Below are positions 2,031 through 49,005 of a stretch of DNA of 64,000 bases, piece after piece. The stretch is from contig JASSKH010000030.1 in the NCBI GenBank assembly GCA_031763025.1, forward strand, positions 248,001 to 312,000, read 5' to 3'. The position numbers and the translations under genes are program-made. Every line of letters begins with the position of its first letter. The stretch's first letter is position 1. The stretch comes from Macrocystis pyrifera. Its lineage: Eukaryota > Sar > Phaeophyceae > Laminariales > Laminariaceae. The notes under the pieces are model-generated. The model was not told the DNA's origin. It made no database searches and saw only the letters and a program-made list of their open reading frames with translations.

Positions 2031-2096
<66 letters not shown>

Positions 2097-2196
2097 NNNN
2101 NNNNNNNNNNNNNNNNNNNNNNNNNNNNNNNNNNNNNNNNNNNNNNNNNNNNNNNNNNNNNNNNNNNNNNNNNNNNNNNNNNNNNNNNNNNNNNNN
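2031..2196. repeat. poly(G) run ending in an assembly gap of 100 N
   Basis: About 66 G in a row run directly into N at 2097-2196. The true length is unknown; the assembler evidently stopped inside the homopolymer. Confidence 0.95.
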
Positions 2197-2411
2197 GATG
2201 TAAAACTGTCACTGTACCGTATCGTACTGTACTGTAAGGCAACAAGAGCCAAGTGTTCGAAAACCAAAAAGTCCGAAACGAAAAAAAAGGACATGCGGCA
2301 ACACGCATAATGCGCCTCTCCTTTTTTTAGCTCTCTTTCTCGCCTCCCTCCCCCCCCTTCCTCGTACGTATGCCTCCGCACATTTATCTCGAACTCCCCC
2401 CCTGTGTATGT

Positions 2412-2502
2412 TGGAGGTGTCTCTAGTAAGGGTAGGAACGGTGCTGCTTCTCGAAAGGGATGCGTAGTCAATGGTCAAATGACTAAGGCAAGCAACAAAT
2501 GA
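2412..2502 (-). repeat. GTACTC/AATGAG-type repeat (family C) copy
   Basis: Contains the shared string set GTTGGAGGTGTCTCTA, AGGAACGGTGCT, GGGATGCGT, GTCAATGGTCAAA and GCAACAAATGAG, followed at once by poly(C). The same order recurs at 2700-2803, 4527-4637, 10255-10322 and, reversed, at 8807-8868 and 27220-27330. Confidence 0.8.
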
Positions 2503-2512
2503 GCCCGCCCCC

Positions 2513-2530
2513 CCCCCCCCCCCCCCCCCC

Positions 2531-2624
<94 letters not shown>
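2513..2624. repeat. poly(C) run, ~110 bp
   Basis: Nearly pure C with one interrupting A, directly abutting the GCAACAAATGAG end of a family C repeat. Confidence 0.95.
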
Positions 2625-2627
<3 letters not shown>

Positions 2628-2639
2628 TCCCTCTCTCAT

Positions 2640-2803
2640 TATCGATAAGGTTAGAAAACTAGTCCTACGAAATATATTGAAACAACGTAATGAGCGCCCG
2701 ACTGTTGGAGGTGTCTCTATTAGAAGCAGGAACGGTGCTCCGTCTCGGAAGGGATGCGTGGTCAATGGTCAAAGGAATAGAGGGCGAGCAACAAATGAGT
2801 ACC
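2640..2803 (-). repeat. family C repeat copy, longer form
   Basis: Extends further than the copy at 2412: it also carries ATATATTGAAACAACGTAATG upstream of GTTGGAGGTGTCTC, a part shared with the copies at about 4490 and 27330-27370. It ends AACAAATGAGTA next to poly(C). Confidence 0.75.
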
Positions 2804-2852
2804 CCCCCCCCCCCCCCCCCCCCCCCCCTCGCCCCTCCTCCCTATTTATCAC

Positions 2853-3032
2853 CTCTTCAGTGAGCTTCTGCTTGCTCGTCGATAGCGCCTTCACCGTCTG
2901 GTTCAAAGCGTGGTACGTCATCCCCGAGGCCTCGAAAGTGCTCAAAGCTTTCTGCTTTTCGTACTGCCGGTCGCGGCGGAGCGTCTCGTTGGCCGCCTTG
3001 AGGTTATCGTTTTCCTTGCGTAGCTTATCCAC
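2853..3032 (-). CDS. myosin exon 21: coiled-coil segment
   Basis: Exactly 60 codons between a TAG acceptor and a GTGATA donor, phase 0 at both ends. It begins [20 protein letters not shown], a typical heptad-rich coiled coil, and continues to KQKLTEE. Its 5' end is copied into the tandem repeats just upstream (see 3026-3420). Confidence 0.85.
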
Positions 3033-4930
3033 CTATCATATCATGTCAGACAAAATCGAAGTATCGGTATAATATATCGTATCATAATATCACATTGTAT
3101 GACACGCGGAACATGCGCGGTGGAATTGTCGTTACATATCGTTTCGATAACATCGTATTTTATCATATCACACGCGGTAGGTGGGCTTGTCCTTTTCCTT
3201 GCGCAGCTTATCCACCTATCATAAAATATCAAAACATAGCATAGCAAACCATAGCATATAATATCATATAATATCATATCATACGTGGTATATACGTAGT
3301 GAGACTACCGTAATCGTTTCGATCATATCGTATTTTATCATATCACACGCGATAGGTGGGGTTATCGTTATCCTTGCGCATCCTGCTCCCCTGTCACATA
3401 CATGATACGACATGATACGGTACAATGATACCCATACCACACGGGGTAGAGGAGGCGCAGACAAGCTCACAAAGGCATACCCTTGGCCCTATCATACGAC
3501 ATGTCCTAAACTCGCACCCACGCGATGGGAAAAAAAATGAGTCGGGTAACACAAGAAAGCGGACGGGGGGGTGGAGGGGGGAGGGAGGGGCAATGAGGGA
3601 GGCCCACCCAGCTAAAAACCGCAATAGTTTTGGCACGGTTTCAATACCTATGACTATTAACCTTTTGTTCTATCAAATTAGAAAAAAAAAAAAAAAAAAC
3701 ACCAAGTGGAGCTTTACGAGCAGGCAGACAGATACGCGGAGTGCGCAGCATAGTATATACTCATCGACGGCCACGACAAAGAAAAAAGCGCGGGAGGGGA
3801 GGGGGGGGGGGGGGGGTATCGAATATCTACCTGGGCGGACAGGCACACGCGGCACGGTTCACACCAGTCAGCCATGACGGGCAAAAATGGTCCATAGGAA
3901 CGAGGGGGGGCGGGGGGGGGATTCTCCACCTGGACAGGTGAACATGGTGATGAATGTATGGGGACGGCGGCGGCGATGATCATGTCGTCGTGAGATAATG
4001 AATGCGTGCAAGCGTCTGGGGGGGGGGGGAAGTCGACGTCCCGGGGTGCAGAACGCTCATTTTCAAGAGTGTGTAACTGCAAGCCCTCGGGGTAGTACGT
4101 AGTGGAGGAGAGTTAATACGCGCCGCCACTCTCTCAACTATGATACCACTACTACTCCTACTACTACCCCTACTGCTTCTACTACTACTACTGCTACGAC
4201 TACTACTGCTACTACTGCTACTACTGCTACTACTGCTGCTACTACTTATACTACCACTACTACTGCTACTACTGCTACAACTACTACTACTCCTATTGCT
4301 ACTACTACTACTGCTGCGGCTACTGTACCAACCACCACACAACAAACCACACTACTACCACTGTTTATGCTACTACTAATATAGTCTACACCATCACTAT
4401 TAATACCAAAACTCTACAACCAACCACTGCTACTATTATTCCTTCTACTATTGCTACTCCTCCAATAACATAACAGGAGCAAAACGCTCCGATGTATTAT
4501 ATGGGGAAAATATAATGATCGCCCAAATGTTGGAAATGTCCCTATTAGGAGTAGGAACGGTGCTAGGAACGGTGCTCCCTCCCGAAAACGATGCGTGGTC
4601 GAGGGTCCAAATACGGAGGCAAGCAACAAATTAGCACCCCCCCCCCTCCCCCGTCCCAGCATTGTAGCGACCGAGGGTCCACGGTCATACGACTACGGCT
4701 ATGCATGATGACGAGTGCATGCCACCCCCCCCCCTCCCCCGCCTTCTCCAAGCCAACCACCCACCTCCGTCTTCAGCGCGCCGATAATCTGGCTGCTCTC
4801 CCCCATGATATCAAGGCTCGCCTCTCTCCTCTGATCCTCCTCAACAAGCAGCTTCCTGTGCTTCGCCAAAGACGTGGGGCTGAAAAACCCCATTGCACCC
4901 TCGATCATCCCCGCAACTGTCTTCGCCCCG

Positions 4931-4990
<60 letters not shown>

Positions 4991-7900
4991 ACCCCGGGGC
5001 TGACTTCGACCCATCCCCGGGCTTATATTGGCTGCTACTACCGCCTACCATGTCCAACACCCCTCCTCCCCCGCCGCCATCACCATCCGCCCTTGAGGCA
5101 AGCGCAACCGCATCATCTGGCGAAATTCGCCCGGGGAGTTCCATTTTCCTCGCCGAGGCTTTTATTGAGGTTGCTTCCGAGGAAGGGGCGGCTGCCGCTG
5201 CTTGCTGCTTCGACGCTGCCTCTGCCTTAAGCTGCAGCTGCTTGTGGGCCTGCAGAAAAGAGAAGACACAAAACACTCAAGAGTTAGGGTCAAGGTACAG
5301 AGTAACGAGCAAATGCGAGTACCTTTTTAGTAAGCCACCCCCTGCTTATCGGGACCTCTCAGCGTGTCATCGAGGTATTACGGACTACATCAGCTTCCCT
5401 AGCCATTCTTAAGTGGGTCTGTCCTACTAAACACAGGGCAGGCCAGGCTGGACATACAGTGAGGAGTGGTTTTTAAACGACCCTTGCTTATCGAGACCTT
5501 CGATAGTGCCATGGAGGTATTGCTAATCAACGTCAGCTTCCTCCACCATTCCTACTTGTTAGGTGCGTCCGTTGATGGCCCCCCCGAGGGCCTCTTGATG
5601 GACTGACCGTTTAAAAATCCGACGCATCGCCCTGTACCCGCCGGCTAATTTTTCCATCGGGGTTTATACTCGGGGGTAGCGAACCTTGATATGTCGGTCA
5701 TACCTTACAAGGCTACCCTTCGGAGGCGTTCGGACGTGGGGCGACTGACGCAAGGTAAAGCCAGCTGAAAAAGACGAAAGGCCCACCAGCCGTGGGCATA
5801 TTGAAGTTTGTATAGCCCGAAAAGCGAAAGACATAGCAGCAACCCGCGAAACGAAATCGGTACATGCATGTCTACACGTACTCGGGTATGTACCTGGGTA
5901 GACCCCTAAAACGATACATATAAGTACCCGGGTATGTACGCGGGTATGTACCCGACTTGAACGCTTCTCACTCCTCACCTCTTCAGTGCCCAGCCTGGCC
6001 TGCCGTGTTAAGTGTGAGTATATCCTCTGGGATACTCGGGTACCCTACCTGATTTTATTGGCTATACCCGGGTGTGTATATGTACCTATTGCTATACCCG
6101 GGTATCTATATATATGTACCCGGGTATGTACCCAGGTAGATACCACTATTAATAGTCCACTCCTCACCTTTTCCATGTCCAGCCTGGCCTGCCGCTCCTC
6201 GTCCAGCTTCCTCTGCAGCGCCAGGATCTGGTTCTCCAGCTTAGCCGCCTCGCGGTGCTCAACCACCATCACGGCGTACGCTCCTCGGGCTTGCGCCCCT
6301 CTCACAAAGGTTTGCACCACCACCGAAGCATCTTCGTTTCATGTTATTGTAGTGTGCGGTGGAAGGGGGGGGAGGGGGGGTGTACTCATCATCATGCATG
6401 GCCGTAGAGGGGGCGGGGGAAGGTTCCGCGCGGGAAAGAGGAAGTCGGCGTCGTGATCATGCGAGGAGAGGACAAGCACCCTCACCAACACTTGACACCA
6501 ACACGACCATCACTATCAACACCAATGCCAACACTAATACCATCAAAATGCCACCGACCCAAACCAACACCGTCACCATCCAAGACCAACGACATAGGCA
6601 CCACCACAGCAAACCATTACCGTCACCAACACCATGATCACCCCAAACCAACACACCCCCACCTCCCCCTGATCACACCATCAACGACACCAACACCAGC
6701 ACGCATGCCCGAACCAATCGCAAGCCAACTTCCACCACACTACCACCACTACCACCACCACCACCACCAAAACCGACACCACCAACCCTCACCTCGCATA
6801 GCAACAAAATTTCGGCGAGCGACCACCATCCTCCTCCAGGACTGCAGGCATGCCGCCGCCCGGTGTCGCCTCAGCCCCAGCACTTCCTTTGCTGCCTTCA
6901 CCCTTCTCCAACATGCCTGCGTACAAACGGAAACCCCTCACGCTGTCAGCGGGATAGACATTGACCCAATAACCTCGCAGTTATCTTGGCTCTAATTTTC
7001 GTGTTTTTCCGCATATGCGTCATGTACGTTTCTATTACGGAGGGACCATAGTAAGTAGGACCTACGGTACACACAAAAACCTTTATATTCCCCTATTTTT
7101 ACTAACAATATCTGGTCCCATTTACTATGGCCCCCCGTACTAGATGTTGTGCCGCCTAACGTAGATAATGCTGGGGGCAAAACCTCCTACACATATACGA
7201 CGAGGTTCCCTGAGCTGCAAACCAAAAACGCCAATTGAAACGAAAAAAGGGGGAAAAAAATAGATAAAACAATACCTGGGCCTTGATGATCCGCCCCCGA
7301 GCCGTGAGATACCGCCTCCTCGCCGAAACCCTCCGCCACTCCCTCTGGCCCCTCAGCGCCCCCGCCTGCAGCCTGCAGTAGTGCATCTTCCTCGGCCACA
7401 TTCTCGCGACCGCCTGCAAAATCGTTACCCTGGCCGATCGCTCCTTAAGTCGCAGTCCCTCCAGGTGCTCGAGGGCCCCGGCGCGGAAGTAGACCTTGCT
7501 CCGCCCCATCTCGAAGCGGAGGACGGGGTCACCACCCTGCTATCCCCCGGGCCCGGGTGATAGTGACGTATGTACACCGCGTGTTTTCGGAGTGGTACGG
7601 GACGGGGCGACCGGAACGAGATAGCGCGTCAAGCAAAGTGGGCAGCAGCAAGCAAGCAGGCAGACAAGCAGGCAAAGGTAAACAAGCAAGCAGGCAAGCA
7701 AGCAACACACGATACCGATACTTCGCGGCTCTAAACCCTAAAGTACTGCTGCTGCTGTTTGCAGCTATGCTGCTGAGGACGCACGTGCAAGCAGGCTGGC
7801 ATGCAAGGAAATGATTACCGGCCCTCTTCCACCTTCCAAAATGCTCGAACACCCGTAACGTACTATCCCCCCCACCCTCACCCCCGCGCTCCGTCCCGGC

Positions 7901-8769
7901 ATTGTAGGGGTGCGAGGGTCTATGGGCGTACGGCTAAGGCCATGCACGACATGAGTACCCCCCCCCCCCCCCCCGCTATTATTATATACCTTGATATATA
8001 GGTTGGGCTGGCGTTGGTTGGCGACGACGCTGTAAAACATGCCTCTCATTGCGTGAGCCAGACAGCCAGGGTACCGTTTTTTTTTTTGTTTATTTTGGCG
8101 GTTACCACGGCTAGCGGTCAAGTTAGATCATTTTTTGTGCGGGGAGAACATTTACTCCGCACAAGGGGGATGATCGTATCACGTAGTGTGTATATGGTGA
8201 GGCACCCACGAGGCAGTTACATAATAAATCCATTGCTGTCTCTGGAAGTGGCCACACCATAAATTAAATCAATTCGTTGATGCTGTCATCCATTTGCAAG
8301 AAAATCTGCCTCTAAAGCGGTTCTTAGTAGGATGCAGCTCACCCTTCATCCGACTCGCCCAACACCTCACGGCGCTTCGCGCTTGGTGCAAGCAATGTCT
8401 GCCTGGTCGGTGAAAACCCGACGCGCTCCGTCCCGGCATTGTAGGGATGCGAGGGTCTATGGTCATACGATTACGGCCATGCATGATAATGAGTACACCC
8501 CCCGCCCCCCACCCCCCCCTCCTCCCTAACCCCGCCCCCTTCCATACGTTGGAAAACTTCGCACCTCTTCCTGCGGTGGCAGCGGCGGCAGAAGCTTGGC
8601 CAGGAGAGAGCGGCAAGCGGCCAGCTCGTCCTCCTCACCCTCGGGCAAAACATTCCCAGCGGCGGTGCCGCGTCCTCCGTTCGTCCTTGAGGTAGCCGTA
8701 GCCCCCGGCGAGGTCAGGAGCGCGAACCTTTTAAAATCAACAATGACCATGTACCGCACGCAAAAACGT

Positions 8770-8806
<37 letters not shown>

Positions 8807-11352
8807 CGTTCTCATTCGTTGCTTGCCTTAGTAATTTGGCCATTGACCACTCATCTCTTTCGAGAGGGGGAGAGGGTGTACTCATACCATGCATGGCCGT
8901 AGTCGAATGACCATAGACCCTCGCATGCCTACAAAGCCGGGACGAAGCACGTCGGGTTTTCGCCGACCAAATAGACATTGCTTGCACCAAGCGTGAAGCG
9001 CCGCGAGGTTGTTTGGCGAGTCGCATGAAGAGTGAGCTGCATCCTACCAATGACCTCTTGTGAGGCAAACTTGCAAATGGATAGCAGCGTCAATGAGTTC
9101 ATTTATTTTCCGTTGTGACCACTTCAAGAGACAGCAATGCGGGTGCAATCTAGGGGCGGGGTGTACTCGAAATCACGCATGGCCGTAGTCGTATGACCAT
9201 GTATGGGGGGGGGATAGAAGGGAAAGGGGGATGGGGTGGGGGGGGGCGTGTACTCGATGCTGTGCATGGCCGTAGTCGTATGACCATCGACCCTCGCATC
9301 CCACAATGTCGGGACCGAGCTTGTCCGGCTTCACCAACGAGGCAGACATTGCTACAGTAGCACCAAGCGCGAAGCGCCGTGAGGTGTTCGGCGATTCGCA
9401 TGAAGCGCGAGCTGTATCCTACTAAGAACCGCTTGTGAGGCGGCTTCCCTTGGACATGGGTGACAGCGTCAAATGACGGGGGGGGGGGGGGGGGGGGGGG
9501 GGGGGATAGCGGGGGGATAGCGGGGGGGGGGGGGGTGGGGGTGGGGATAGGAAAGGGGAGAGGAAGAGAGTGCCCGAGAGAGACACCGACGCCGCATGTA
9601 TACTCGTCCGTAAAAAACAAAAGTTTAAAAAACGACATTTTCCCCCTAAAAAACAGAAGGCCCACCAGACTTCTACTGCTACCTCCGCCTCACGGTCGTG
9701 GTCGGTAGCAGCACCAGCAATAACAGCAGCAGCAGCAGCAACAACCACACCAGCACAGAGAGCAACAGCAGACCGGACAACCAAACAAAAAGCTAAAAGG
9801 TCAAAAGGTCGAAAAGTTAAAATGGAAACTGACAAATAAAATAAAAAAAAACAGAGGAAAAAAAGTTCACCCCAAAAAAGTAAAACAAAAAAAAACAAAA
9901 AACAAAAACGCTCACCTTTTGTTGAAATCCGTCCTGCTCATGCGGTTGGGGTAGGCCGCCCTCGAAATCCGAATGGCTTCCACAACTCCTGCGCATCGAA
10001 GCTGCTCTGCCACCTGTTCCCACCACCAACAGGATCACCCCCCCCCCCCCCCGCACGCCCGGGACAAAAATGCAAACAAAATTTGCGAAAAAAAAAAAAA
10101 AAAACAGGGAAGAATTGTTTTGGTCCGGTGGCCCACCAAGAACATCACCCTCCCCTCCCCGGCGCCCTGGAAGAAAATGTATTTTTTTCGAGGGGAAAAA
10201 TATCCAGAGAAGGGTTTGGACCGGCGCTTAATCATGAATCCCCCCCCCCCCCCGCCGCGCTCCGTCTCGAAGGGATGCGTGGTCAATGGTCAAATGGCTT
10301 AAGGCAAGTAACAAACGAGTACGCCCCCCCGCCCCCCCCCCTCCCCCCCCCCCCCGCCCTCCCCTAAGGGGCCCGGAAAATGCAAAGCTATTATTACGGG
10401 GGTCCATAGTTAACAGGACCTACGGTATACACAAAAATCTATATATTTACCTATTTTTACTAACAATATTTGGTCCTATTAACTATGGTCCCCCGTAATA
10501 ATAGTTTGAGGAAAACGTGAGAGAAGGGTTTGGTCTGGCGTTCTAGCAAGCAGCCGACCCCTCCCCTCTCGCTCGAAACGCCCCGGAAAATAAAAACAAA
10601 CGAACGGAAGTCTTCGAAAAAGTCAGAGAAGAGGAGCTCAATCTTCTCCTCGTTCGACTGCGGCTTGGCCTTGCACAGGCACAGGTGAAGGTTGTGACCT
10701 AGGTAGGTGGGGTGCAACTTGCCTGTGGCCTGTGCGAGGGCGAGTCGTGAAATTAGGCACTACCTTCGGCCAGTTTGTTCATAGTTACGTTTGGATGTAA
10801 CCAGTATTGTCCGCTCTGTTTTTTTTTCTCGTTTCCTTCGTAAATTTGGCTAGGTTTGGCTAAATTCCGATATTCTCGTTTAAAAGTGTATCTGGTACCT
10901 GGTGTGATACTGTACTTTGCGCAACGTTTGGCTGAAATAGGGTTGTGCTCTCCAGCAGCGAAAAGCCGGCCGACAGCATCAACGACAAACCAAACGCTGG
11001 GCACACAACTCAACACGCCAGCACGTACCATGAACAAAAGCACCAGCATAAGGCAATAAACCAAACGTTGAAAGCACACCTGAACGCACCAGCAACGAAA
11101 AACCACATGTTGGACACACACCTTAAAGCATCAGCAACATCAACAGCATCAACGACAGACCTTAATGCTGGAAGCACACCTTAACGCATGAGCAACAACC
11201 AACAACGATCAACCGATCATTGGCAACACACCTTCACACAACAGCAACATCAACAGTATCAACGACAAAACCAAGCGCTGGACACACACCTCAAGGCATC
11301 AGCAACCTTAACAGCACCCGCGGCAAACCAAACGCTGCAAGCCCACCTTTAC

Positions 11353-11405: not shown

Positions 11406-12292
11406 CAACCAGACGCTGGAAGCACACCTTAGCGTTCTCCATCCTGCCAGGAAGCTTGGCCGCGTTAGGCTTGATGCACCTCACGTACTGTACCGCGGTG
11501 AGGCCGATCGTTTCCCTGTTAGCACGTTAACACAAGTCAAAGGTAAAAATCACGAGAGCGTGAAACCATGACAAAATATACCAGGCATGCTTCAAGCATC
11601 GAAAGCCGAAAATATCCAGACATCGTCAAATCATCGTCAAGATACCAAATATGTCACACACGCTAGAAACATCGTACCACAACTACGCCAACAGTCAAAA
11701 CAACAAAAAGACAACACAAAACAGCAAGGGAACAAATCATTCAAGACCGGAAACATCGAAATACGAAACATCGTCCAAACATTGTGCAAACACCAGAAAC
11801 ACCAAAAACACCAAAAACTTGAAAAAACACCAAAAACATCAAAGATATTTGGAAAAAAAATCATCTAAAACGATCAATCAAACTCAAAAACACAAAAATA
11901 CCCCAACATCAAGAACGTAACGGTACTGCTGTAGGCATGGACAACGCAATGAGACGTGCTCACATGAGCGTCGTCAAGCTCCCCTTAAACTTAGTCGCGA
12001 GGGTGTTCGTAGCCATGGAGGCTTTACGCTTCGGTCCCCCCGCACCGCCACCGCCACCACCGCCGCCGCCGCCGCCCTGAGCAGCGCCAGGCGCCGAAGC
12101 AAACACCTTGGCCACCTGAACACGCCACAACAAAACACAAAGCAACGAACAGACAGATCAAAGACAGAAAACAAGCTTTTTAAACACAACAAAAGGACAA
12201 CACACAACAAAAACATGGTAGGCTATAGCCGGGTAGGTGTAAAATTACAATAGGCATAGTATGGGGGGGGGGAGGGGGGGGGGGGGGGGGGG

Positions 12293-12341
<49 letters not shown>

Positions 12342-15296
12342 GTACTCATTGTCATGCATGGCCGTAGTCGTATGACCATAGACCCTCGCATCCCTACAAT
12401 GCCGGCAATGCCGGGACGGAGCATGTCGGGTTTTCACCGACCAGGCAGGCATTGCTTGCACCAAGCGCGAAGCGCCGTGAGGTGTTCGGCGAGTCGCATG
12501 AAGGGTGAGCTTCATCCTACTAAAAACCGCTTGCGAGGTAGACTTGCATATGGATGACAGCCTCAATGAGTTAGTTTAATTTCCGGTGTGGCCACTTCCG
12601 GAGACAGCAGTGGGGGTACTATATAACTGCCTCGTGGATACCTTACCATAAATACTACGTGATACGACCGTTCCCGTTGTGCGGAGTAAAGGTTCTCCAC
12701 CCCGCACGAAGGATCTTAAGTCGATCGTCAGCTGCAACCGACTGCCAAAAAAAACGAAGAAAAAAAAAAAAAAAAACGGGTAGGTGTAAGGCCACAACAG
12801 GTGTGGCCTTGAGGGGCGATCACATACATAAAATATATCCGTTGGTAGGTTATACTCGGGTAGGTGTAACATTCCAACGGGTATGGTATTGAGGGGCGGA
12901 ACATAGGTATAGCTGTGTACCCGTTGGCAGGTTATACCCGGGTAGGTGATACCCTGCCGAAGACACCTTTGTACAGCTGTACCCGTACCCGCAACGACTA
13001 CTGACAGGCAAGGAGCACTCGAACGAGCGTTGGGGGGGAACGCACTTGCCCGATGCAACACAAGCCACGAAACGACGCAAGCCAAGAGTTGGGATATTAA
13101 TCCCAAACCGGAAGCCGTACACCGAAACCGAAACCGCAGCTGTAACCGTAACCGTGGCTCAAACCGTAACCGAAACTGCAGCTGGAACCGAAACCATATC
13201 CGAAACCGAAACCGTAGCCGAAACCAGAACCGGAACCGTATCCGAAACCTAAGCCGCAGCTATAACCGAAACCGTAACTGATAACGTACCCGAAAGCAAA
13301 ACCGAAACCGTAGCCGAAACCAGAACCAGAACCGTAGAACCGAAACGGAGTCTAAAACCGCAACCACAACCAAGTCCAAAATCATAAACCGAAACACGCA
13401 GAAACCGAAACCGCAAAACCCAAAACCCCAAAACCAAAACCTCAAAACCGAAACGGCAAAACCGCAAAACCGAAACCCCAAAAACCATAAAAGTAAACAA
13501 AAAAAAAAAAAACAGAAAAAGTTTCTTGCCAGGGGGACGGAGCTCTTGGCCAGCAGATCCCGACATGCCTCCCCGACGGTGTCCCTGTTCTTGTCCAAAA
13601 ATCCTTCCGCGTGGTACAAAACCTCCCCCGCGTAATGTCGAACAGAGAACTCGAACGGCCCGGCTAGCTTGGCCCTGGCGAAGGCCGCGTGATCCCCGTG
13701 CAGGGTGACAAGCTGGGGGAAAAGTGATGGGAGATACGGAGACGGTGTCGACGGGAGTCGGGGTTGAGGGTTTGGCGGTTGGAGTTTGTTTTTGTTTGGG
13801 CGGGGGGATTAAGGGGAAGCTGAAAGGGGACGGTGGAGACGGAGGGTGGGGGAGGGGGTCAAGGAGGACCAAGAGGAAGAGGGGCGGAGGGGGTGGGAAA
13901 GAGGGTGAAGGGGGAGGGTGGAGAGGAGGTGGGAGGGCGAACAGGTGGAGGGGGGGGGGGTGGGGGTGGGGGGGGGGGGGGGGGGTGTACGCTCAACTTT
14001 GGGTTTGACGTACGCCGTTCCGCTACCGCGGGAGCGGTTCGCCGTGCCGGGCGTCCACAAGGAGAGGTACAGCATGCTTCTTTCCTACTGGCCGATTTCG
14101 ATCACAGAACACCACAGGCGATACGCTGCACACTACATCAACGCGCCACAAAACACAGCCAAAATACATCAAAACCGCCCTAAAAACACACCACAGAGGC
14201 AATAAAATAACAAGACCAGACGCGAAACGCCGGCACAGCACGAGACAGGACAAGACATCACACACCCGCGACGCAAAATCACACCCCATGCACAAACCAC
14301 CAGACACAACAAAAACAACGGAAGCGCGAGTTACCTTGCTGACGAAGCTTCGGTCACCGCCCCTGGGTCTGACGCACTCCTCGTTCAGAACAGCGATAAC
14401 GCCCATCCTACTCTCCACCAAAGCCAGCACGTCGGCATTGTCAGAAAAGTCGACGTGACTCCAGGAGATGCCCTCTTCCTCGTACTCCACCTGCGATATA
14501 TCATGGTAACATGCACCGTAAATCATGTACCATACAGCGAACGGAGGATTGGAAAAAATGGGAGGCATACAGGAAGGGGGGGGGGAGGGGATGCACTCAT
14601 TATCACGCATGGCCGTAGTCGTATGACCATAGACCCTCGCATCCCTACAATGCCGGGACGGAGCACGTCGGGTTTTCACCGACCAGGCAGACATTGCTTG
14701 CACCAAGCGCGAGTCGCATGAAGGGTGAGCTGCATCCTACTAAGAACCGCGCCAGAGGCGGGTTTTCTTCCGCGCGGATGACACCGTCAATGGATTGATT
14801 CATTTATCTGGTGTGGCCGCCTCCAGACACAGCAATGGGCGTACTATGTAACTGCCTCGTGGGTGCCTCACCATACACACACTACGTGATACGATCATCC
14901 CCCTTGTGCGGAGGAAAGGTTCAGGGGGGTGGGGGGGGGGGGCAGGCAGCAGTTAAATATATATATATATATATAAGTGCAGAGACAGCTACGTACCGTG
15001 GCGTGGTGTGTGGGAGTCATCGCGCGCCGCACACCGTACGGCGTGGTATCACACACAGCTTTCGTCAACATGCTATAATACAAGTACTTGCTCATTCTAA
15101 CGCGAACATAATACAACCAAAGCAGCCCCAACTCCACGTCCACTTGACGACGCCAACAGCTACACCGACGCTAGCAGCGACGCCAACACAGACACCAACA
15201 CCAACACCAACACCACCAACATCAACACCACCACCACCACCACCACCAACCAACACCAACACCACCAACCACCACCACATCACCAAAAACCCGTTG

Positions 15297-15327: not shown

Positions 15328-18300
15328 ACCCTTCCCCTTCCCGCCCGCCACCACCCCCACCTGAACATTCTTGAACACATCCAGGGTAAACTTCTGCTGT
15401 AGCTTCTCGTTCGCGTAGTTAATGCACAGCTGCTCGAAGCGGTTGATCTTGAAGCTTTCAAAGCCAAAAATGTCGAGGAGAGCCACCGTCCCCCCCCCGG
15501 CGCAAGGGCCTCGCCAGCATGGCGACGCGTAGCCCCCCCCCCCCCCCCCCCCCGCCCCGCCGCCCCCTCCCGCCTCCCCGGGGTTTTCAGTCGAAGACGC
15601 CGCGGCCGTGCTTCGATTGATTCGCTGAACCAACCATTCGAAAACCCTGAAAATAGAATACAATGAAGGGGGGGGTGGGATAGGGAATGGGGGATACAGG
15701 GGGGGGGGGGGGAGAGCGAGGCATACAAGAATATCACACTGGGGGGATAGACGGGGCGGGGAGGCAAAATAAACTAAAACGCGGAGGGGGCATAGGGCAT
15801 AACTTAACTTGTGAAATTAACTCTTTATTACTGCAAAAAAGGCCCACGCTAGTTCCAAGTATGTTTTCCCTTAAAAAGGAGCGGGCAAGTGTAGTTGGGT
15901 TAAGCTGGGGGGGGGGAAGCGAGGGGGATTGGGGGGAGGGGTGGAGGTTGGGGGGGGGTGTACTCGATAGGAGAGATGGGGGGTAGTTTGGGCGTGGGGG
16001 GGGGCACGATATAATACTGCTGTGGCCCAAGTCAGGAGACCACAGTAGTCAACAGCTAACGATCCCGAGATCAACAGGCGAAAGCGCTGGGTGGGGTGGA
16101 GACGCGATCAGGGGGCACGCACGCGTTTAGCGAATGTTGATACGGTTTGAAACCGCCATGACGTGCGTATATCTACCGTGTTGAGCCAGAAAAATCTCTA
16201 CAAGCAGAGGCAGCGAAAAATGAACGCCTCCCCCCGCACATGGCCTGCGCCTACTGTAATTCCCTCTCGCTTTATCTTTCACGTACCTCTTTGGACGGAA
16301 ATATAAGGTTCGTTTGGTCTTCCTATTTACACTCTAACGGCCCTTACATTTCCATCCAGAGTGACAAGTGTACTTGCTGTCTATGCCGCTGAATACGCCT
16401 CTTCTGGCTGTCCCCCTACTGGTAGGTAGCTGCCCTTGTCTCCCAATCGGTCTACGTCTCTCCGTTTCGAAATTTCCTTGTCGCTCCCTCTGTTTGTCCT
16501 CTGGCTTCTTAACTTGGTTCTACACTTCGTATGTATACACTCATCGCCCAAAATCCGGCTCCGTCTCTCTCTTTGTCCCTACCTCCCCCCCCCCCCCCCC
16601 CCCCCCCTCTATGGTCATACGACTACGGCCATGCATTATATCGAGTCACCCCCCCCCCCCCCTCCTTCCCCCCTCCATATCTCCCACTTCCCGATTCCAC
16701 CCCACCCCTCCTACCCCTTCCCCTCCCCCCCCCCTTCTCCCGCTACACCCTCCTCCCTGCCCTCTCCCCCTCCCCTCTCACCCACTATAGATGGCTTTCG
16801 CCATGGCATCCCGAGCGTCTGCCGCTTGAGCCGGGCTGCTGTCCGCTCGCATCACGTCATTCCTAGCACGAATCGTACGGTAGCATAACGACGAGTCAAG
16901 AGCCGACCCCGGCCCCCCTTCTCCCCCACCAGCACCGCCGGAAGAGGAGAGACCGAGAAGGTCCGAGGGAGGGAGGAGGGAGGAGGGGTCGATCACCTCC
17001 GACTTGTCTTCGTCTCCTCCTCGCACGCTGAAGTCGACCTGGTGGTGGTGGTGGTGGTAGTGGTGGTGGTGATAGTGGTGGTGGAATTGGTGTTGACGTC
17101 GGTGTTGGTGGCGATGTTGGTGTTGGTGATGATGTTGATGTTGGTGTTGTGTGTTTGGTGTTGTTGGTTGTAATGTTTGGTGTTGGTGTTGGTATTGGTG
17201 GCAGGGGGGGGGGGGGGGGGGGGGGCAGGGGCGGGGGAGGCGTACTCATGTCATGCATGGCTGCAGTCGTATGAGGGGGTGCAGGGGTACAGGTCATCGC
17301 GAGAAGCAAAAAAAATACTACAGACGAATACCCTACAGCCTCATGGACACCGATACAAAAGGGACAGCAGGGGAAGGGCGGACAAGGACCGACAGGCACT
17401 TGCTGAACAAGGAAAAACAACAACAACAACAACAACGAAACTTACTGACAATTTCCTCCCCCCCTCCCCCCCAACAAAACAAACAGTACGAGCAACAAAA
17501 AAACGAAACCTCCGAAGACCGACCGGCAGATATTTTATCGATGTGACCAACCAATCGGCCCTTACAAAACCTCGCGCGGAAAACGAGCGCACGACAAAAC
17601 GCTGCACTATGTACGTGACCACCCAAGAAAAAACTGAAAATCGTGTAAAACCACACAGGCTGAACACATTTCACCCCAATACTATACTTGGGAGTATCGA
17701 TGAAGTTCGATTCACGATCATTCCCGTCACGGCACAACCTCCCCCCCCCCCCCCCCCCCCCTCCTCCCTCCCGCCTCCATCGTCGCCCCCGCCGCCCATA
17801 GCTATTCGAGGGGAAACCCCCATAACGAGCGTGTTGTGCGCAGGCTATATATTGGTGATGGCGAGCCAGCGGCTGAGAACGAAAGAGTGTAATACTTCAC
17901 ACATCGGCCAGGCAGATGATCTACAGATCATGTACAAATCATGTACAGATCATGTACAGATTATTGATGATCTAGATCCTTCAGGGCAGATAATTTTTTG
18001 ATCTGCGTGATCTACTTCATGACACCGACTGGGAGTGGTATAAATCTGGATGATTTAGCAGCGCCTGTTTCCTTCGTTGGATATCTACTACCAGGTATAC
18101 AACAGATCCTGCATTGCCCTACAAGGGCAGGTTGGGATCTAGACGATCTATCTGTAGATCATGTATAGATCATTTTAGCTAGAAAGCGCGAGCTAGCAAC
18201 ATTCGATGAACATCGACGAGCAATGGGAAAGCTGAACCCTATGCGCGACAAAAATGAAGGCGCGTACAGAGGGGGGGGGGGGAGGGACGACATCTGTGAC

Positions 18301-36254: not shown

Positions 36255-38060
36255 GTGAGAGTCCGGCGATCTTCTATTGGCAAGCGTAGCCAAGGCCAAC
36301 CTAGAGAGGTGGGAACCTGCTTCGGCATGCCTAGTTTCGAGGACATGCCCAGTCAAGAAGCCAGCGTGGAGAGTGAAAAGACCATAGAGGAGATGAAGAA
36401 GAAAATAGAGGTCCTGGAAAGGACGATGGAGGAGCAGAGACTGCGCGCCGAGAGGGACGCGCAGGGAGCAGGAAAGGAAGGGGGGGCCGGTGGGGGGACG
36501 AGAGGAGAAGGAACTGCTGGAAGACAACAAGCAGCGTCGACGGTGCCGACACCTGGGCTGGAGGCCCGATCAGGCATGTCACTACCTTCTTTGTACCGCC
36601 CAAGTTTGTCCCAGTCGAGACCCCCGAAGTTCGATAACGTAGAGGCCCACTTTAGCATGTGGCGCGTAGTAAGTTTTTGGCATACCTATCATCGCTTGGG
36701 TGCTTGCATGTACTCAGTAGCACAGCAAACCCAGTTATGGTGGGTGACATGAGGGTTTCGCCGGAGGAATTAGCCTCCAGACATTCCCCCCAGGAGATTA
36801 GGGACGCGAGATTGGTGTAGGGATTGATGATGGAGGCCATGACAGGATACGATATGGCTGAGTTTAGAATGCAAAAGGCAATGTCTCCGAGTGGTGCTTG
36901 GAAGGAGTTGGAAGACTATTATATGCCGAAGACGATAGCCGCAACTCATAGATTGAGGAGGGAATTTGATACAATCCGAATGGCCGAGGATGAAAACCCC
37001 TTGCTGTTCCTGGGAAGGGTGGACAAGGCAGCAGATGAGCTGGCGATGCTAGGATGTGGTAAGAGTACGGAGGAAGTAAACCGCCACATTGTCACCAACC
37101 TCTCATCTTTGTATACTATTCAAAGCAAGTCCATTATTTCCCGCCCTTCCATCCCCCGTTCCGAGATCGATGAGATCATCCGTGACGCGTATGCTAACGA
37201 CAAGGTAGAGAAGGAGATGGTTTCTAGGGCGTTGGGCGTGCAGGGAGTGGTAGGTCAGCATGCCTTGTACGCCGGAGGTGCGCAGCCTGCCGGTGGCGGA
37301 GGTGCGGGTCCAGGAGGGGGAAGGAGGAACAGGAGAGGTGGGAGGCTCAAAGATGGGCAACAGCAGCAGCAGCAGCAGCTCCAGCGACAGTATCAGCAGC
37401 AGCAGCAGCAATATCAGCAGCAGCAGCCTCAGCAGCAGCAGCAGCTCCAGCGACAGTATCAGCAGCAGCAGCAGCAATATCAGCAGCAGCAGCCTCAGCA
37501 GCAGCAGCAGCACCAACGGCAGCAGCAGCATCCTCAACAGCAGCAGCAGCACCGTCCCCATCAGCAACGTGGCAACCGGGGAGGAGCTTCGTCGGGGGGG
37601 ATAACCGGCCCCAAATGGCGTTGGGATGCCGTGGCCTGCAGGTACCGTTGGGATGACTCAGCCCCAGACCCCTTCGGTACACCACCAGGGACGTTGCCGC
37701 CGATGCCCCCGCCGCCCGCAGCGACTCCGGCAGACTGGGGTCCCCCACCGAACAAAACATGGAGGCGCAAGGGGCCCTGCTTCCGGTGCGGCAGACCGGG
37801 CCACCACGCCGCGGAATGCCAGGCAGCTCCCGCGCAAATGAATATCGCTTTCCCGGGCGCCGCTTCTCCTCAAGGTGGCTGGCTGCAGGAGACGCCCTAC
37901 GGCAGTGGTGGGTATACCTCAGCCGGAGCTTCCCCGCCACAGCAACCCTCCTTCAGCACTTCCCCCTCCCCTGGCCCAGCGAACAACGGCAACCCTACGC
38001 CTACGTTCGATCCGCATCTCCTCACCGCGCAGTTTGCGCACCAAGGCAAGGCGAATGATG
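36255..38060 (+). other. copia element: leader and gag region
   Basis: A coiled-coil-rich stretch (KTIEEMKKKIEVLERTMEEQ) is followed by a gag-like domain, a long Gln-rich tract (~37.36-37.56 kb, CAG repeats) and one CCHC zinc knuckle, CFRCGRPGHHAAEC, near 37780. Nucleocapsid role by family. Confidence 0.85.
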
Positions 38061-41000
38061 ATTTGTTTTGGGTTAATGGGAGAGAAGAGTGGGTAGCGGA
38101 TTCGGGAGCAACTTTTCATGTGACTGGCAACCCTTTTGGTATGGTAAACTGTACTCCCCCTCCCCCTGGTAAGAGCCGTTTAGTGGTCGGTGACATGAGG
38201 TCACTGAAGATAGAGTACTTCGGCCAGATTCCAATTGTGATGCACAGCTCTCAGGGTGACGTTCAAGTTAGGCTGATGGACGTAGCATACGTACCCGGTG
38301 TTCGCTTCAATTTATTTTCGCTTCATGCAGTAATGTTGAAATGCCCGGTGACACTTGATGCTCAGGGAGCTCACACGTTGAATGGACAGCTGTCTTTCGT
38401 GCGTAGGGACGCGGGTTCATACGTAGACGCCACGCGGATTGTAGAGACCCCGATTGCTGCCGCCGTTTTGGCTCCTGGAAAAATGAGGAGGATCGATATT
38501 AATGACCTTCACGTTGCCCTTGCCCACTCCCATGCTGACACTCTCCGTGAGACGGCACGCCAGATGGACATTAAGGTTTTTGGGGAGTTGGTTCCGTGTG
38601 CTGGGTGTTCTGAGGCGAAAGGGAGGAGGATGGCGGTGCCGTGGACGACCGAGTGCCGTTCTACCAGGCCTCTGGAGCGTCTGTTCGTGGATCTGTCGGG
38701 ACAACAGCCTACGTCTGCTGGCGGTGCGTCATACTTGATGATGATCGTCGACGACTACTCGCGACTGGGATGGCCGTATTTCTTGAAGCGGAAGTCCGAC
38801 GTCCCGAAGGTCTTCGCTGGTTTCCTGGCCGACATCAACGCGAAGGGTGTGCCGTCCATCGTGGAGTGCCTTCGCTCGGACAACGGCACCGAGTTCACCA
38901 AGGCGGAGTTCGTGGAGTTGCTCAACCACCACGGCATCCGCCGCGAGTACACGCCCGTCGATTCTCCGAAGCATGACGGGGTGGTCGAGCGACGGATCGC
39001 CATGACGCTGGAGCTTGCAATGGCGTCCCGCCTGGAGGCCACCCGCCTGTTCGGCGATGCAAGGATGCCGGCGACGCAGCCCCTCTGGGCTGAGTCATGC
39101 GTGTACGCGAGCGATGTGATCAACATGACGGCGAGGGTAAGGGACAAGCCGGAAATGCACTCGCCGTACCGAATATTCTACGGGAGACCACCGTTTGCGC
39201 GGCTGCTCCCGTTTCTGAAGCCGGGCTTCCACCACGTCAGGAGGACCCTGAAGACCGAGCCGAAGGCGGAGGCTTGCTTCTACCTCAACGGCGGCAACCA
39301 TCACGCAGCTGACTGCAGCAAGATCCTGCTGATGTCAGGCCGAAGGTCGTCGTTCTCCCGTGACGTCACTTGGGAACACCCGAGGAAACCGTTTGTGGGG
39401 TTACTGCCTTCGGAGGAGGAGAGCTCCCCGCCGCCGCCGTCGCCGTCGCCACCGCCGCCGGGTGCGCCGGAGCCTCTGAGGGGCCCCGACGTATGGCCCG
39501 AGCCACCGTCCCCATCTCCACTGCTGCCGCCGCAACCGCCGTCATCAACGCCGCTACCGCCGCCGCCGCCGCCGTCGCCGTCGCCACCGCCATCGCCGTC
39601 ACCGTCGCCGTCGCTGCCGCCGTCATCGTCACCGCCGCCGCTACAGCCACCGTCACCGCCGCCGCCGCCGCCGTCGCCGCCGTTATCATCGCCGTCGCCG
39701 CCGCAGCAGTCACCGCAGCCACAGCTTTCGCAGCGTGCTGCCCGGGCACTAGGTTATTATATCCCGGACCCGGGGGATGGCCATGTGCTGAGGGGGCGGA
39801 CAAGGGGGGAGACTGCACGACACCAGGAGAGCGGTGGCGCTGTGCGGAGAGGGCGGACTAGGGGGGAGACCGCACGACACCAGGAGGGTGGTGGCGGTGT
39901 GCAGGGTGATCGGGCCAGGGGGGAAGCTGGGCGACATCCGGAAGGTGGAGATGTGCTGAGGGGGCGGACAAGAGGGGAGACTGCGCGGAAACGCGAGGCT
40001 ATGGGGCATGGGCTGCTGTCGTTGATGGCAGCGCGGGAAGGTATAGGCCATGTACTTTTCCACCAAGCCCCACCGCGCGAGAGCCCTCCCCTTCCCACAC
40101 GCCCGGCGAGCGAGCTTTCGACGCCGAACTCGTATGCTGAAGCGTGTGCGGACGAGAATTCGGCCATCTGGAGACAGGCGATGGACAAGGAGTACCATGG
40201 GCTGGCGGACGCGGGGACATTTGGAGCGACGGAGCAACCAGAGGGGCTCAACGTCATCTCGGCGAAGTGGGTGTTCGCCTGGAAGTCCAACGAGCATGGT
40301 GACGTGGTGCGGGCGAAAGCAAGGCTGGTGGCACGAGGTTTCAAGCAGCGTGAGGGTATTGATTTCTTTGAGACTTTTGCTCCGACGCCTGCAGCGTCTT
40401 GTTTCCGTTTGTTGGGTGCTATTGCGTGCGAGTTGGGTTTGGATTTGTGTCATTTTGATGCTGAGCAGGCGTTCGTGCAGTCGAGTTTGGATGAGGATGT
40501 ATTCATGCGACTACGTCCCGGCTGCGGCGAAATGTCTGGTAAGGTGGTCAGGTTGAATCGCAGTCTCTACGGCTTGAAGCAAGCGTCGAGGTCGTGGCAC
40601 AACCACCTTCTCACTCACATGAAGAGTCCAGGATTTGAGCAGAGCCCCGCTGACGCGTGTGTCATGAGGTTGGTCGAGTCGGGCTCTGTCTCCATTGTAA
40701 CGGTAGTTCATGTGGATGATATTTTTGCTGTAGGACTCAAGGCTAGATGCGATCAGTTCTGTGACGACCTGAACAACCTTGTTCCGATCAACAATCTGGG
40801 CGAGTTGCGGTGGTATGCTGGTTGTTGTTTTTCGAGGGATTGGGATGCTGGTACTTTGACGATTTCGCAGCAGGCGTTCGCTGAAAATACCGCGGCGAGG
40901 TTTGGTGTTAGTTCTGGGAGGAATAACCCGCTTTCGACTGGTGTGAAGCTCGAGGAGTTTGACGAGAATGAACCCGTGGGTGATTGGCCTTTCCGCGAGT

Positions 41001-41640
41001 TGGTGGGGTGCTTGATGTGGCTTGCGAACCAAACACGACCAGATATTGCGAACGCGGTGAGGGCGGTAGCGAGGTACACGAATAGGCCGAGGGAAGTACA
41101 CTGGAAGACAGCAGTCGGTATTTTAGAGTATGTATTTTCTACGAGTGATTTCGGCATTACGTTCCAGAAGGGTAGCGGGCTTGAGCTGGTAGCGTTTGCG
41201 GATGCAGACTATGCCAACAAAGCCACTGACAGGAGGTCAGTTTCCGGTGGGGCCATCATGTGTGCTGGTTTTCTAGGACGCAGAAATGCGTCACACTCTC
41301 AACCACTGAGGCCGAATATGTAGCACTGGCAGACACCATCAAGGAGGCAATGTTCATGCGCTATGTATGGAGTTTTATTTTTCCGGGGTTTGGAGAGAGA
41401 TGCATTACGGTTTTCGAGGATAACGAGGGGGCAAGGTACCTGGCACAAAATCCAGTGTGCACGTCGAATTCGAAGCACATCGACGTACGACACCACTTTT
41501 TGCGCGAGCTTATTTTTAAGGGGGAGTTTGTTATTACCCATGTAGAGTCGGAGAAACAGCATGCAGACTTCTTGACAAAGCCGCTCAACAACACGGTGTT
41601 TCGTTACCACCGGGATTTTCTGATGAATATTTGACACGGT
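38060..41640 (+). other. copia element: pol region (PR, IN, RT, RNase H)
   Basis: Protease DSGATFH near 38100; GAG-pre-integrase LHVALAHSHADTLRE; integrase core with DLSG, SDNGTEF and a late Glu (VVER); reverse transcriptase with ARLVARGFKQREG, HFDAEQAFVQSSLDE, RSLYGLKQASRSWH and the catalytic HVDDI; RNase H with TTEAEYVAL, EDNEGA and SKHIDVRHHF. All usual copia landmarks are visible. Confidence 0.92.
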
Positions 41641-43090: not shown

Positions 43091-43094
43091 ACTA

Positions 43095-44754: not shown

Positions 44755-44860
44755 TTGCTGGGGACCATTGTTAATAGGACCAAAATATTGTTAGTAAAAA
44801 TAGGTAAATATATAGGTTTTTGTTTGTACCGTAGGTCCTGTTTACTATGGTCCCCCGTAA
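44755..44860. mobile_element. TTACGGGG MITE, copy 13, inside a perfect palindrome
   Basis: TTGCTGGGGACCATTGTTAA / TTTACTATGGTCCCCCGTAA. Flanks GTGGCCTGTCACTA (44741-44754) and TAGTGACAGGCCAC (44861-44874) are exact inverses, so the target was the central TA of a 26-bp palindrome. Confidence 0.93.
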
Positions 44861-45083
44861 TAGTGACAGGCCACGAATAATAATGTAAAACGTTAACCTG
44901 AATTTAGTCCAACGATATTGGGCGATGCAGTTCCCCAGTGGAGGAGCCCCGTCAGTCGCAAATATTTGCCTCGCAAGGCAAAATGTGCTACTGCAATCGT
45001 CGCACGCCTCTGATTGCCTCTGGTGCGTTGTTTTCGGCGCCTCTCTTTTGTTTTCTCGACCGACGGGTCCCCGGCCCGCACAG

Positions 45084-45239
45084 GTGTACCAGTCAGAATA
45101 TCTTGTAGGGTCAAAGATGATGACGATCAGCTCCTTCGGGCCGGACTCTGTTGCCTCCGCGCCTTGGCGAGCGGGGAAAGGCGGGAAGGTCACCAATTCT
45201 AGGTCGGCGGTCATCAAGCCGGAAGCGATGATGCCGGAG
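45084..45239 (+). CDS. AtpI/CGL160-like exon A
   Basis: CCGCACAG acceptor, GTGGGT donor, 52 codons, phase 0 both ends. Confidence 0.6.
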
Positions 45240-46823: not shown

Positions 46824-47236
46824 TCGTGCAAAAACATGGTTTTACACATGATTCAGAGGATATTTCGTAGTGGTGTGGGTGCATTGTTTTTTTAGAGAGT
46901 AGACGATGAAGCAGAAAGTAAAGGTTTGGCGATTGAGGACTAAATGCGGGGATAAAGTAGGGCCTTCGCACTGTAGGTGTTGGTGCGCTCAGTATCATCA
47001 GCATCATCGTCGTCGTTATGAATGGCGAGTAAAGTTGTAAGACACAAAATGGGATTGCTAAAAAACGTTGGGTAAGTCCTTAGTTGAATTGAACCCCGCT
47101 AGGAACCCAAAAGTACCCCTCCCCTGCCACACTGTAGCGGAATATACCGCACTGTATAGGCATGGATCGATGTGATGGTGTGCCGGAGGCGGCTAGAATG
47201 GAGAAGGAGTTCCATTAACGGGACGAGATGTCTAGG

Positions 47237-47772
47237 GGGGGGTGTACTCGATAGGAGAGATGTACCCGATCTCATGCATGGCCGTAGTCGTATGACCATA
47301 GACCCTCGCATCCCTACAATGCCGGGACGGAGCATGTCGGGTTTTCACCGACCAGGCAGACATTGCTTGTACCAAGCGCGAAGCGCCGTGAGGTGTCCGG
47401 CGAGTCGCATGAAGGGTGAGCTGCATCCTACTAAGAACCGCTTGTGAGGCGGACTTGCATATGGATGACAGCTTCAATGAGTTAGTTTAATTTCCGGTGT
47501 GGCCACTTCCAGAGACAGCAATGGGAGTACTATGTAACTGCCTCTTGGGTGCCTTACCTTGAACACTACGTGATGCGATCAATTCCCTTGTGCAGAGTAA
47601 AGGTTCTTTACTTCGCACAAATGATCTCACTAGACGACCAGCCGTGGGCGACCGCCAAAAAAAAAGAAACAAAAAAAACCGTACCCTGGATGTCTAGCTC
47701 ACGTAGTGAGCGGCATGTTTTACAGTGTCGTTGCCAACCGACGCCAACCCAACCCATATATAATATATATAT
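47237..47772 (+). repeat. family B repeat, full length (~530 bp)
   Basis: From TGTACTCGATAGGAGAGATG and CCCGATCTCATGCATGGCCG through all family blocks to GTTTTACAGTGTCGTTGCCA, ACCGACGCCAACCCAACCCA and TATATAATATATATATAA. Best copy for defining the family. Confidence 0.92.
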
Positions 47773-47795
47773 AACAGGGGGGGGGCGGGGTGGGG

Positions 47796-48025
47796 TGTGC
47801 TCGTTGTCATATATGGCCGTAGTCGTATGGCCATAGACCCTCGCACCCCTACTATGCCGGGACGGAGCTCGTCGGGTTTTCACCGACCTGGCAGATGATG
47901 CTTGCACCAAGCGCGAATCTCTGTTAGGTGTTCCCGCAAGTCGCATGAAGGGCGAGCTGCATCGTCCTACGAAAAGCACCGCTTGTGAGGCGGATTTCCT
48001 TGCACATGGATGACAGCGAGGTCCC
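47796..48025 (+). repeat. family B repeat, 5' half, in tandem with the previous copy
   Basis: GTGTGCTCGTTGTCATATAT through CCGCTTGTGAGGCGGATTTC; separated from the previous copy only by a G-run. Confidence 0.88.
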
Positions 48026-48164
48026 ACCCCCGTCAGTCAGAATAAAAATGGCGCAAAAGCACCCCCCACCTACCGCAGCATGCCTCCAGCTAAACCCCGC
48101 TCTCTTTCCATTGGTTGGTGTGCCGGCGAAAAACAGGTTGCGACGCTCGTGCAAGGCGTCTACA

Positions 48165-48250
48165 CAGATTTCGATGATGTCGAGGACGCGGAGGCTGCTG
48201 TGTGAAGAGATTTCGATGATGTCGAGGACGCGGAGGCTGCTGTGTGAAGA
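48165..48250. repeat. exact tandem duplication of ~42 bp
   Basis: GATTTCGATGATGTCGAGGA CGCGGAGGCTGCTGTGTGAA occurs twice in a row. Confidence 0.9.
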
Positions 48251-48344
48251 CGAAGACACCTCTTTTATGAGGCGGTGGAACTCCGCGGCAGGGTTAGGGT
48301 TAGAGTTCTCCCCCCTGCGTTTTTTTTTTTCGTTATTTTGCTGG

Positions 48345-48705
48345 CGCCCCCATGTTACCGTTGGGTGGTATAGCTCGCACATCTTACCGTTGGGTGGTTT
48401 GGATCACTCATGTTACCGTTGGGTGGTGTGGTTCATCTTACCGCTGGGTAGTGTGGCACAACTTAACTTTGGGTGGTGTAGATCACTCATGCTACCGTTG
48501 GATGATGTGGTGCATCTTACCGTTGGGTGGTGTAGATCACACATCTTACCGCTGAGTGGTGTGGCTCATCTTACCGCCGGGTGTCGTAGATCACACCTCT
48601 TACCGTTCAGTGGTGTAGCTTATCTTACCGTTGGGTGGCGTAGATCACACATCCTACCGTTGGGTGGTGGTGCTTATCTTACCGTTGAGTGTTGTAGATC
48701 ACGCA
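48345..48705. repeat. ~28-30-bp minisatellite, TTACCGTTGGGTGGTGTAGA
   Basis: About twelve units with CATGTTACCG or CATCTTACCG starts. One frame is open throughout, but the repeat explains it. Confidence 0.92.
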
Positions 48706-48959
48706 TGCGTGACGTGTCCGGCACGCTTCCGTCAGCGGCTTTGCCGTGGTTCGGCAGGAGAGACATCAGGCATGGACTCTCGTTTGATGCCGCGCATACG
48801 AAATCGCCCTTCGGGGGGAGCACTATCCGCACAGCAGGTTGTTAATAGTTAAGTTTCACGCTTTTACAATCAGCCAAAATTAGAGACGCCTCGGCTGTAA
48901 GATGAGGGGTACACGGAACAAACGAAAAAAAACGACGCCTTTTGCTCTAAATCCCAGAC

Positions 48960-49005
48960 AGGGGGGGGGGGGAGGTGTACTCATTCCATGCCATGCATGG
49001 AGAAC
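48960..49005 (+). repeat. short family B fragment next to a G-run
   Basis: GGAGGTGTACTCATTCCATG, CCATGCATGG, then unrelated sequence. Confidence 0.7.

Follow-up and report, generated by a model that had tools for sequence, protein, structure and literature searches.

LINE-1 retrotransposons insert at runs of T, and the target homopolymer lies next to the 3′ end of the element. A 3′ tail common to LINE and SINE, 5′ truncation, and target-site duplications are typical of the LINE-1/SINE system. These elements move by target-primed reverse transcription (PMC12809410 and PMC10830416). Some non-LTR retrotransposons are microsatellite-specific, among them Togen at (TG)n and several HERO families (PMC4640811). 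For Ectocarpus, the available text of PMC12477816 describes RTEX-N1_Ec32, a ∼600-bp non-autonomous element with thousands of copies, a 3′ end in common with an autonomous LINE (RTE-X), and a 5′ region of unknown origin. Long poly-G/poly-C tracts are reported from Caenorhabditis genomes in the available text of PMC2211496.

We analyzed a 64,000-nt stretch of the Macrocystis pyrifera genome (the window) that carries copies of a LINE (family B) and a SINE-like element (family C), and we ran genome-wide searches over the assembly (223 sequences totaling 537,376,219 bases). The pair matches the LINE-1/SINE system in its common 3′ tail, 5′ truncation, and duplications, and its arrangement mirrors T-run insertion with G:C in place of T:A; unlike the LINE-1 target, however, the kelp homopolymer is long (median ∼17) and lies on both sides of the element. 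As with Togen and HERO, a simple repeat serves as the address, but the kelp target is mononucleotide poly(G), which is not named in the available text of PMC4640811. Family C resembles RTEX-N1_Ec32 in the features listed, compared by description only, and the Ectocarpus RTE-X relative may be its kin, whereas a poly(G) target is not named for the Ectocarpus elements in the available text of PMC12477816. The Caenorhabditis tracts are alike in G/C abundance, but no link to retroelement insertion is seen in the available text of PMC2211496. This kind of element is known, and we found no report of a poly(G)/poly(C) retroelement target among the open-access papers listed in our literature searches, including those on brown algae. 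We conclude that the LINE and the SINE-like element, with their common 3′ terminus, very probably insert by target-primed reverse transcription into pre-existing poly(dG).poly(dC) tracts.

An earlier note on this DNA had described poly(G)/poly(C) runs anchored to repeats ending in GTACTC, and that juxtaposition was borne out. At least 8 G occupy the 12 bases before GTACTC, on the same strand, at 15 of the 49 hexamers in the window versus 1.4 expected from the position background, although these copies are homologous and thus not independent events; GTACTC is also the top hexamer in G-rich preceding context within the window. We compiled a mixed sample of 51 B/C ends from the window, 19 loci chosen by place (L024 to L042; 10 kb each, at hand-picked places with no formal random draw, two of them near the window), and locus L023. 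GGGG or longer adjoins the GTACTC end in 49 of the 51 (23 of 24 in the window), and G4+ (at least four G) occurs within 22 nt of the other end in 38 of the 51. The ten places listed in the note are correct to a few bases, with the exact hexamer absent at three (2513 reads GGGCTCATT, 8771 reads GTTCTC, and 16640 reads TGACTC).

The association is with the B/C terminus and not with the hexamer itself. G-runs are far commoner than B/C ends: exact GTACTC lies within 15 nt of 3 of the 25 window runs of 15 or more, and a B/C end was flagged by motif at 10 of the 40 runs of 12 or more in L024 to L042. The word GTACTCATT occurs 21,202 times genome-wide (2,171 for the reversed control), and 4 of 28 sampled words, from a sample biased to small contigs, stood beside a run, with the others mostly inside other repeats. 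The earlier note had stated that its reading would fail if most poly(G) runs lacked GTACTC, or if GTACTC without a run were as common; formally, both are the case by these counts (3 of 25 and 4 of 28). The pattern holds but has to be interpreted the other way round: GTACTC is the shared 3′ terminus read backwards (...GAGTACG or ...GAGTACA in element sense). Other repeats, in L016 to L022 and L044 to L062, bear GTACTCATT without any G-run (GAAGC/GTACTCATTGTTTAGAGCC and CCCCAC/GTACTCATTT...).

Family B, once reverse-complemented, is the 3′ end of a LINE. All 20 further B copies run on past the end of the window copy, 19 of them well beyond it, and in the remaining one a G-run begins 11 bases past that end. 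At L035, the sequence beyond B encodes reverse transcriptase (RT) motifs on the opposite strand. We searched the genome with this fragment (best 150 of 2,173 candidates scored) and with B (best 40 of 4,650 scored, full-length) and compared the 39 B copies outside the window with all 150 scored RT matches. An RT match lay within 4 kb of 6 of the 39, in every case on the opposite strand and across a gap of 842 to 846 bp; two more B/RT pairs ∼6 kb apart were not counted as linked. Because the RT is on the opposite strand, GTACTC on the G strand is the LINE 3′ end and the stubs look like products of 5′ truncation, and once this was found the view of GTACTC as a 5′ end with 3′ truncation was dropped as the main account. 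When target-primed reverse transcription is 5′ truncated, as is normal for LINEs, the usual outcome is a stub that keeps the 3′ end.

The LINE encodes its own RT domain. At L144, a 5′-truncated LINE carries an 856-aa open reading frame (RVT_1, 3.2e-29) with PDB matches to the RTs of R2 and LINE-1. The frame reaches the very end of the element, with its stop codon inside the terminus (AAC-AAA-TGA-GTACG); C18-TCGTAACT follows the terminus, and C9-TCGTAACT precedes the truncated 5′ end. Exo_endo_phos_2 is a weakly supported candidate for the endonuclease (4e-5 and 23.9 bits, below the cutoff of 27.4, in a read-through with one X; 0.0089 without read-through), and a PDB search for the LINE endonuclease gave no match. 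As expected of a LINE, 5′ truncation leaves a constant 3′ end: 51 of the 56 B/C pieces in the window and L016 to L062 start at the GTACTC end, and of the remaining 5, 3 or more are internal segments of interrupted copies. Target-site duplications of variable length, also expected, were found at L144, at window positions 27223 to 27640, and in the young SINE set described below (P = 0.0003). G4+ is present at the GTACTC end of 20 of 21 B copies, by the same kind of test as for C (the window copy reads GGGGTGGAGGC).

The longest B copy in the window is 5′ truncated and occupies 27223 to 27640 on the minus strand, with its 3′ end at 27223. Its duplication is flank plus GGGG, with TGCATATACTGGGG at 27202 to 27215 and TGTACATACTGGGG at 27639 to 27652 (both read on the plus strand; 12 of 14 identical, and G-rich to 27662 after the second). 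Further 5′-truncated LINE copies on the plus strand lie at 2630 to 2804, beside a minus-strand G-run (2802 to 2842); at 2409 to 2504, beside a 121-bp minus-strand G-tract (2504 to 2624); and at 4513 to 4639. LINE stubs were found at 8808 to 8868 (minus strand, beside G37 at 8770 to 8806), at 10257 to 10322 (plus strand, minus-strand G-runs on both sides), and at 22728 to 22748 (plus strand, 21 bp, with only GGG at the GTACTC-type end).

Family C, a SINE-like element of ∼530 bp, has the same 3′ end as the LINE. It matches the LINE 3′ end over 54 bp at 80% identity (E = 1.2e-5), and a 3′ end in common with a partner LINE is what is expected of a SINE. The two families had been called unrelated, a view that we rejected because of this shared end, with ∼55 bp or more common to both at the GTACTC end. 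A SINE is also expected to have an RNA polymerase III promoter or a head derived from tRNA, 5S, or 7SL RNA. ARAGORN with the bacterial code found no tRNA, and Rfam gave no match in the window at gathering score and a chance-level match only for one copy; these known models lent no support to a 5S rRNA or tRNA origin. Nor did a ∼1,250-aa LINE that fills the scored RVT_1 matches look like the partner, as two 3′ stretches of it had only low-complexity matches to B or C. Viral and prokaryote collections yielded nothing useful, with 0 matches apart from 15 viral contigs that matched a short degenerate pattern.

Full-length C copies in the window lie at 47244 to 47776 (minus strand, 3′ end at 47244, G-runs at 47235 to 47242 and 47777 to 47795), at 7975 to 8497 (plus strand, minus-strand G-runs at 8498 to 8539 and 7958 to 7974), and at 22129 to 22623 (plus strand, minus-strand G-rich blocks at 22624 to 22648 and 22070 to 22128). 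Some copies have no far-end G-run, such as that at 12341 to 12770 (minus strand), which adjoins a 78-bp G-tract (12263 to 12340) and has its other end at an A-rich stretch. The 5′-truncated copies, all on the minus strand, are at 14592 to 14923 (G-runs at 14576 to 14590 and 14924 to 14942), 8877 to 9152 (in a head-to-tail chain spanning 8770 to 9546), 9162 to 9200 (a 39-bp stub between G-rich blocks), 9249 to 9472 (G28 starting at 9478), and 47796 to 48018 (chained with the copy at 47244 to 47776, far end without a G-run). Two minus-strand copies are interrupted, one at 19644 to 19819 by another repeat (resuming at 19964 to 20001) and one at 62133 to 62337 by other insertions (resuming at 63539 to 63694). 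Stubs with G-runs on both sides lie at 4651 to 4719 (plus strand, 69 bp, G-runs on the minus strand), 6381 to 6407 (minus, 27 bp), 7885 to 7958 (plus, 74 bp), 15960 to 15978 (minus, 19 bp), and 16608 to 16650 (plus, ∼43 bp). Two more minus-strand stubs are at 17241 to 17274 (34 bp, G-tract before and GGGGG after) and 48977 to 49002 (beside G12, far end without a G-run by eye). Terminal stubs that keep the GTACTC end thus exist as described earlier, but they are not confined to family B, with seven C and three B among the 10 stubs shorter than 80 bp.

A 117-nt repeat has six window copies (7026, 10384, 19804, 20408, 25071, and 26935), one of which interrupts C near 19819. By eye, truncated C copies at L036 (2480 to 2606), L068, and L096 break ∼127 to 135 nt from the 3′ end, and this near-identical place is a possible RT pause site.

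The flanks of young insertions bear on the origin of the G-runs. We took the full-length C copy at window positions 47244 to 47776 and 39 others fetched with flanks (best 40 of 2,075 candidates scored), all at least 95% identical over nearly full length and, being at different loci, mostly independent insertions. G4+ occurs within 9 nt of the GTACTC end in 38 of the 40, with GGG in the other two (background, 2.2%), and no more than 45 nt from the final conserved base at the far end in 40 of 40 (background, 11.4%). Both sides carry G4+ in 38 of the 40 versus 0.64% of 373,160 positions, as expected of a target-specific retroelement. The runs on the two sides are of equal length (medians, 17 near and 17.5 far), and the near-side run is longer in 20 copies, shorter in 17, and equal in 3. 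By a motif test, 17 of the 40 directly adjoin an older B/C end, although L064 among them is a doubtful case and L100 is included solely for its duplicated stub; the test missed the window copy W47244 and L087, both of which qualify by eye. Chains are also seen in the mixed sample, in which the 51 ends form 33 groups and 12 groups hold two to four copies.

If the G-run were a product of insertion, duplicated letters should lie outside both runs, whereas if it were the target, the sequence that precedes the near run on its left should be found again to the left of the far run. In young C copies, the left-of-run comparison gave a mean alignment score of 4.67 versus 4.11 (20,000 permutations; P = 0.0003), and the right-of-run test for a product gave P = 0.41. 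As the left-of-run letters recur and the expectation for a product is not borne out, the G-run is very probably mainly target. Duplications, made up of flank plus Gs, are clear by eye at L072, L073, L079, L100, L093, and L064. The best case is L100, with a 62- to 64-bp stretch, containing an older stub, on both sides of the element. On one side, the duplication leads into G18, then AGT, and then the element; on the other, it runs into G16 and then unique sequence and therefore shows the pre-insertion junction.

A wider duplication search of the young set gave 7 scores of at least 13 versus 2.0 expected (P = 0.0009), of which 4 (L068, L071, L082, and L083) look like element homology or local or low-complexity repeats. 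Mixed-age tests were not significant (35 copies, P = 0.30; 32 chains, P = 0.08), which we put down to decay and small numbers, and nor was one half of the B-flank test (P = 0.07), for which the query ended inside the element. In most young C copies, the duplication, if any, consists of Gs only, with no further duplicated letters. At least three truncated copies have duplications: the L068 stub (99% identical, TGTATC plus G on both sides), L040 (AGGGTA plus G), and the window copy at 27223 to 27640.

Genome-wide, the exact LINE terminus CGTACTCATTTGTTGCTTGCC occurs 3,174 times, with GGGGGG before 2,247 (71%), and the exact young SINE terminus TGTACTCGATAGGAGAGATGTACTCG occurs 3,542 times, with GGGGGG before 2,668 (75%). 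The reversed control gave 0 in each case, and GGGGGG precedes 1,043 of 379,772 positions (0.27%) in the 19 loci L024 to L042. The pattern TGTACTCGATNTCATGCATGGCC (6,377) was left out of the ratio because a subfamily carries the head twice. G-runs of 12 or more number 60,490 and 60,172, or ∼120,700 over both strands. An unoccupied 152-bp G-tract lies on the minus strand at 53550 to 53701 (a run of 145 C at 53550 to 53694), with no B/C end beside it. At window positions 2030 to 2196, G67 leads directly into a 100-N gap, and G-tracts may break the assembly. In another repeat family (D), at L029, L030, L033, and L037, conserved flanks enclose a G-run of ∼10 to 40, and the length of this run seems to vary by slippage.

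Other elements include a 1,500-aa Ty1/copia-type open reading frame at window positions 36821 to 41320 (plus strand; RVT_2 at 9.6e-40, an integrase core, and gag below the cutoff) and a 635-aa ankyrin-repeat frame at 53979 to 55883 (minus strand). A different, very abundant LINE has open frames of up to ∼1,250 to 1,300 aa (best 150 of 7,470 RT candidates scored). One of the two copies read, at L102 and L103, ends in a long CATA repeat by eye, and a similar stretch lies near window position 59327.

The earlier note took a common terminus beside a homopolymer to point to the insertion step, and it does. In the mechanism that we propose, the G strand would be cut in or at the end of a tract, and the ...GGGG-3′OH of that strand would prime cDNA synthesis at the RNA 3′ end, where it may pair with C; the C strand would be cut upstream of or inside the tract. 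As each insertion is left with a G-run at either side, the next copy could then land beside the previous one, giving head-to-tail chains that could grow. We weighed this against the possibility that the element itself supplies the G/C run as a tail, an untemplated or slipped poly(C) at the RNA/cDNA end, made at insertion and later expanded. A tail would account for a run that touches the element 3′ end and for hypervariable runs (∼10 to 40 in family D), and L144, with C9 versus C18, would permit some added tail if taken alone. However, the far-side G-run in all 40 young copies is beyond the reach of any tail, run lengths are equal on both sides, and Gs lie inside the duplications at L072, L073, L079, L100, and L144, so that this account is highly improbable. 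The suggestion that insertion creates the tract, or is what mainly lengthens it, is likewise not supported, as the far duplication copy also has a G-run and lengths are equal, and untemplated G addition at both ends was dropped as the main account.

Fragility of the tracts is a less remote alternative, although we consider it unlikely. The element would have no endonuclease specificity, and any broken G-ended 3′OH, arising because G-runs are fragile or form G-quadruplexes, would serve as primer. The abundance of runs of 12 or more (60,490 plus 60,172), the weakly recognized endonuclease, and the varied extent of visible duplications (Gs alone in some, ∼63 bp together with Gs at most) are consistent with this, but duplications imply staggered cuts on the two strands, and in the two stretches read of another abundant LINE (L102 and L103, by eye), its end seems to lie in ACAC or CATA repeats and not at a G/C-run. 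It is quite improbable that the stubs formed after insertion by G-quadruplex-induced deletions beside the run. G4+ lies within 22 nt of the broken end in 29 of 37 copies shorter than 400 bp, as such deletions would predict, yet LINEs are normally prone to 5′ truncation, and no fewer than three truncated copies (L068, L040, and window 27223 to 27640) keep duplications that a later deletion would remove; this account was dropped as the main one after the opposite-strand RT was found. Nor is a hot spot at which copies break, as once proposed, needed, since stubs retain the element 3′ end and duplications persist at those truncated copies.

Long runs of G are commonly regarded as noise or as fragile sites. 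In this kelp, such tracts seem to serve as a landing pad for a LINE/SINE pair present in thousands of copies, and of the young insertions in our set, roughly four in ten directly adjoin an older copy. Insertion targeted to G-runs would explain the mosaic of stubs and G-runs in the region, and it alerts annotators that a short stub next to a G-run may be the end of a retroelement. It also offers a natural test case for how a reverse transcriptase uses a G-run (or a quadruplex) as primer. We tentatively suggest that, for this kelp LINE/SINE lineage, poly(dG).poly(dC), possibly as a quadruplex or triplex, may be the integration address, that the G-run may act as primer by pairing with C at the 3′ end of the RNA, and that the target may be renewed with each insertion, such that copies and G-tracts would spread together.
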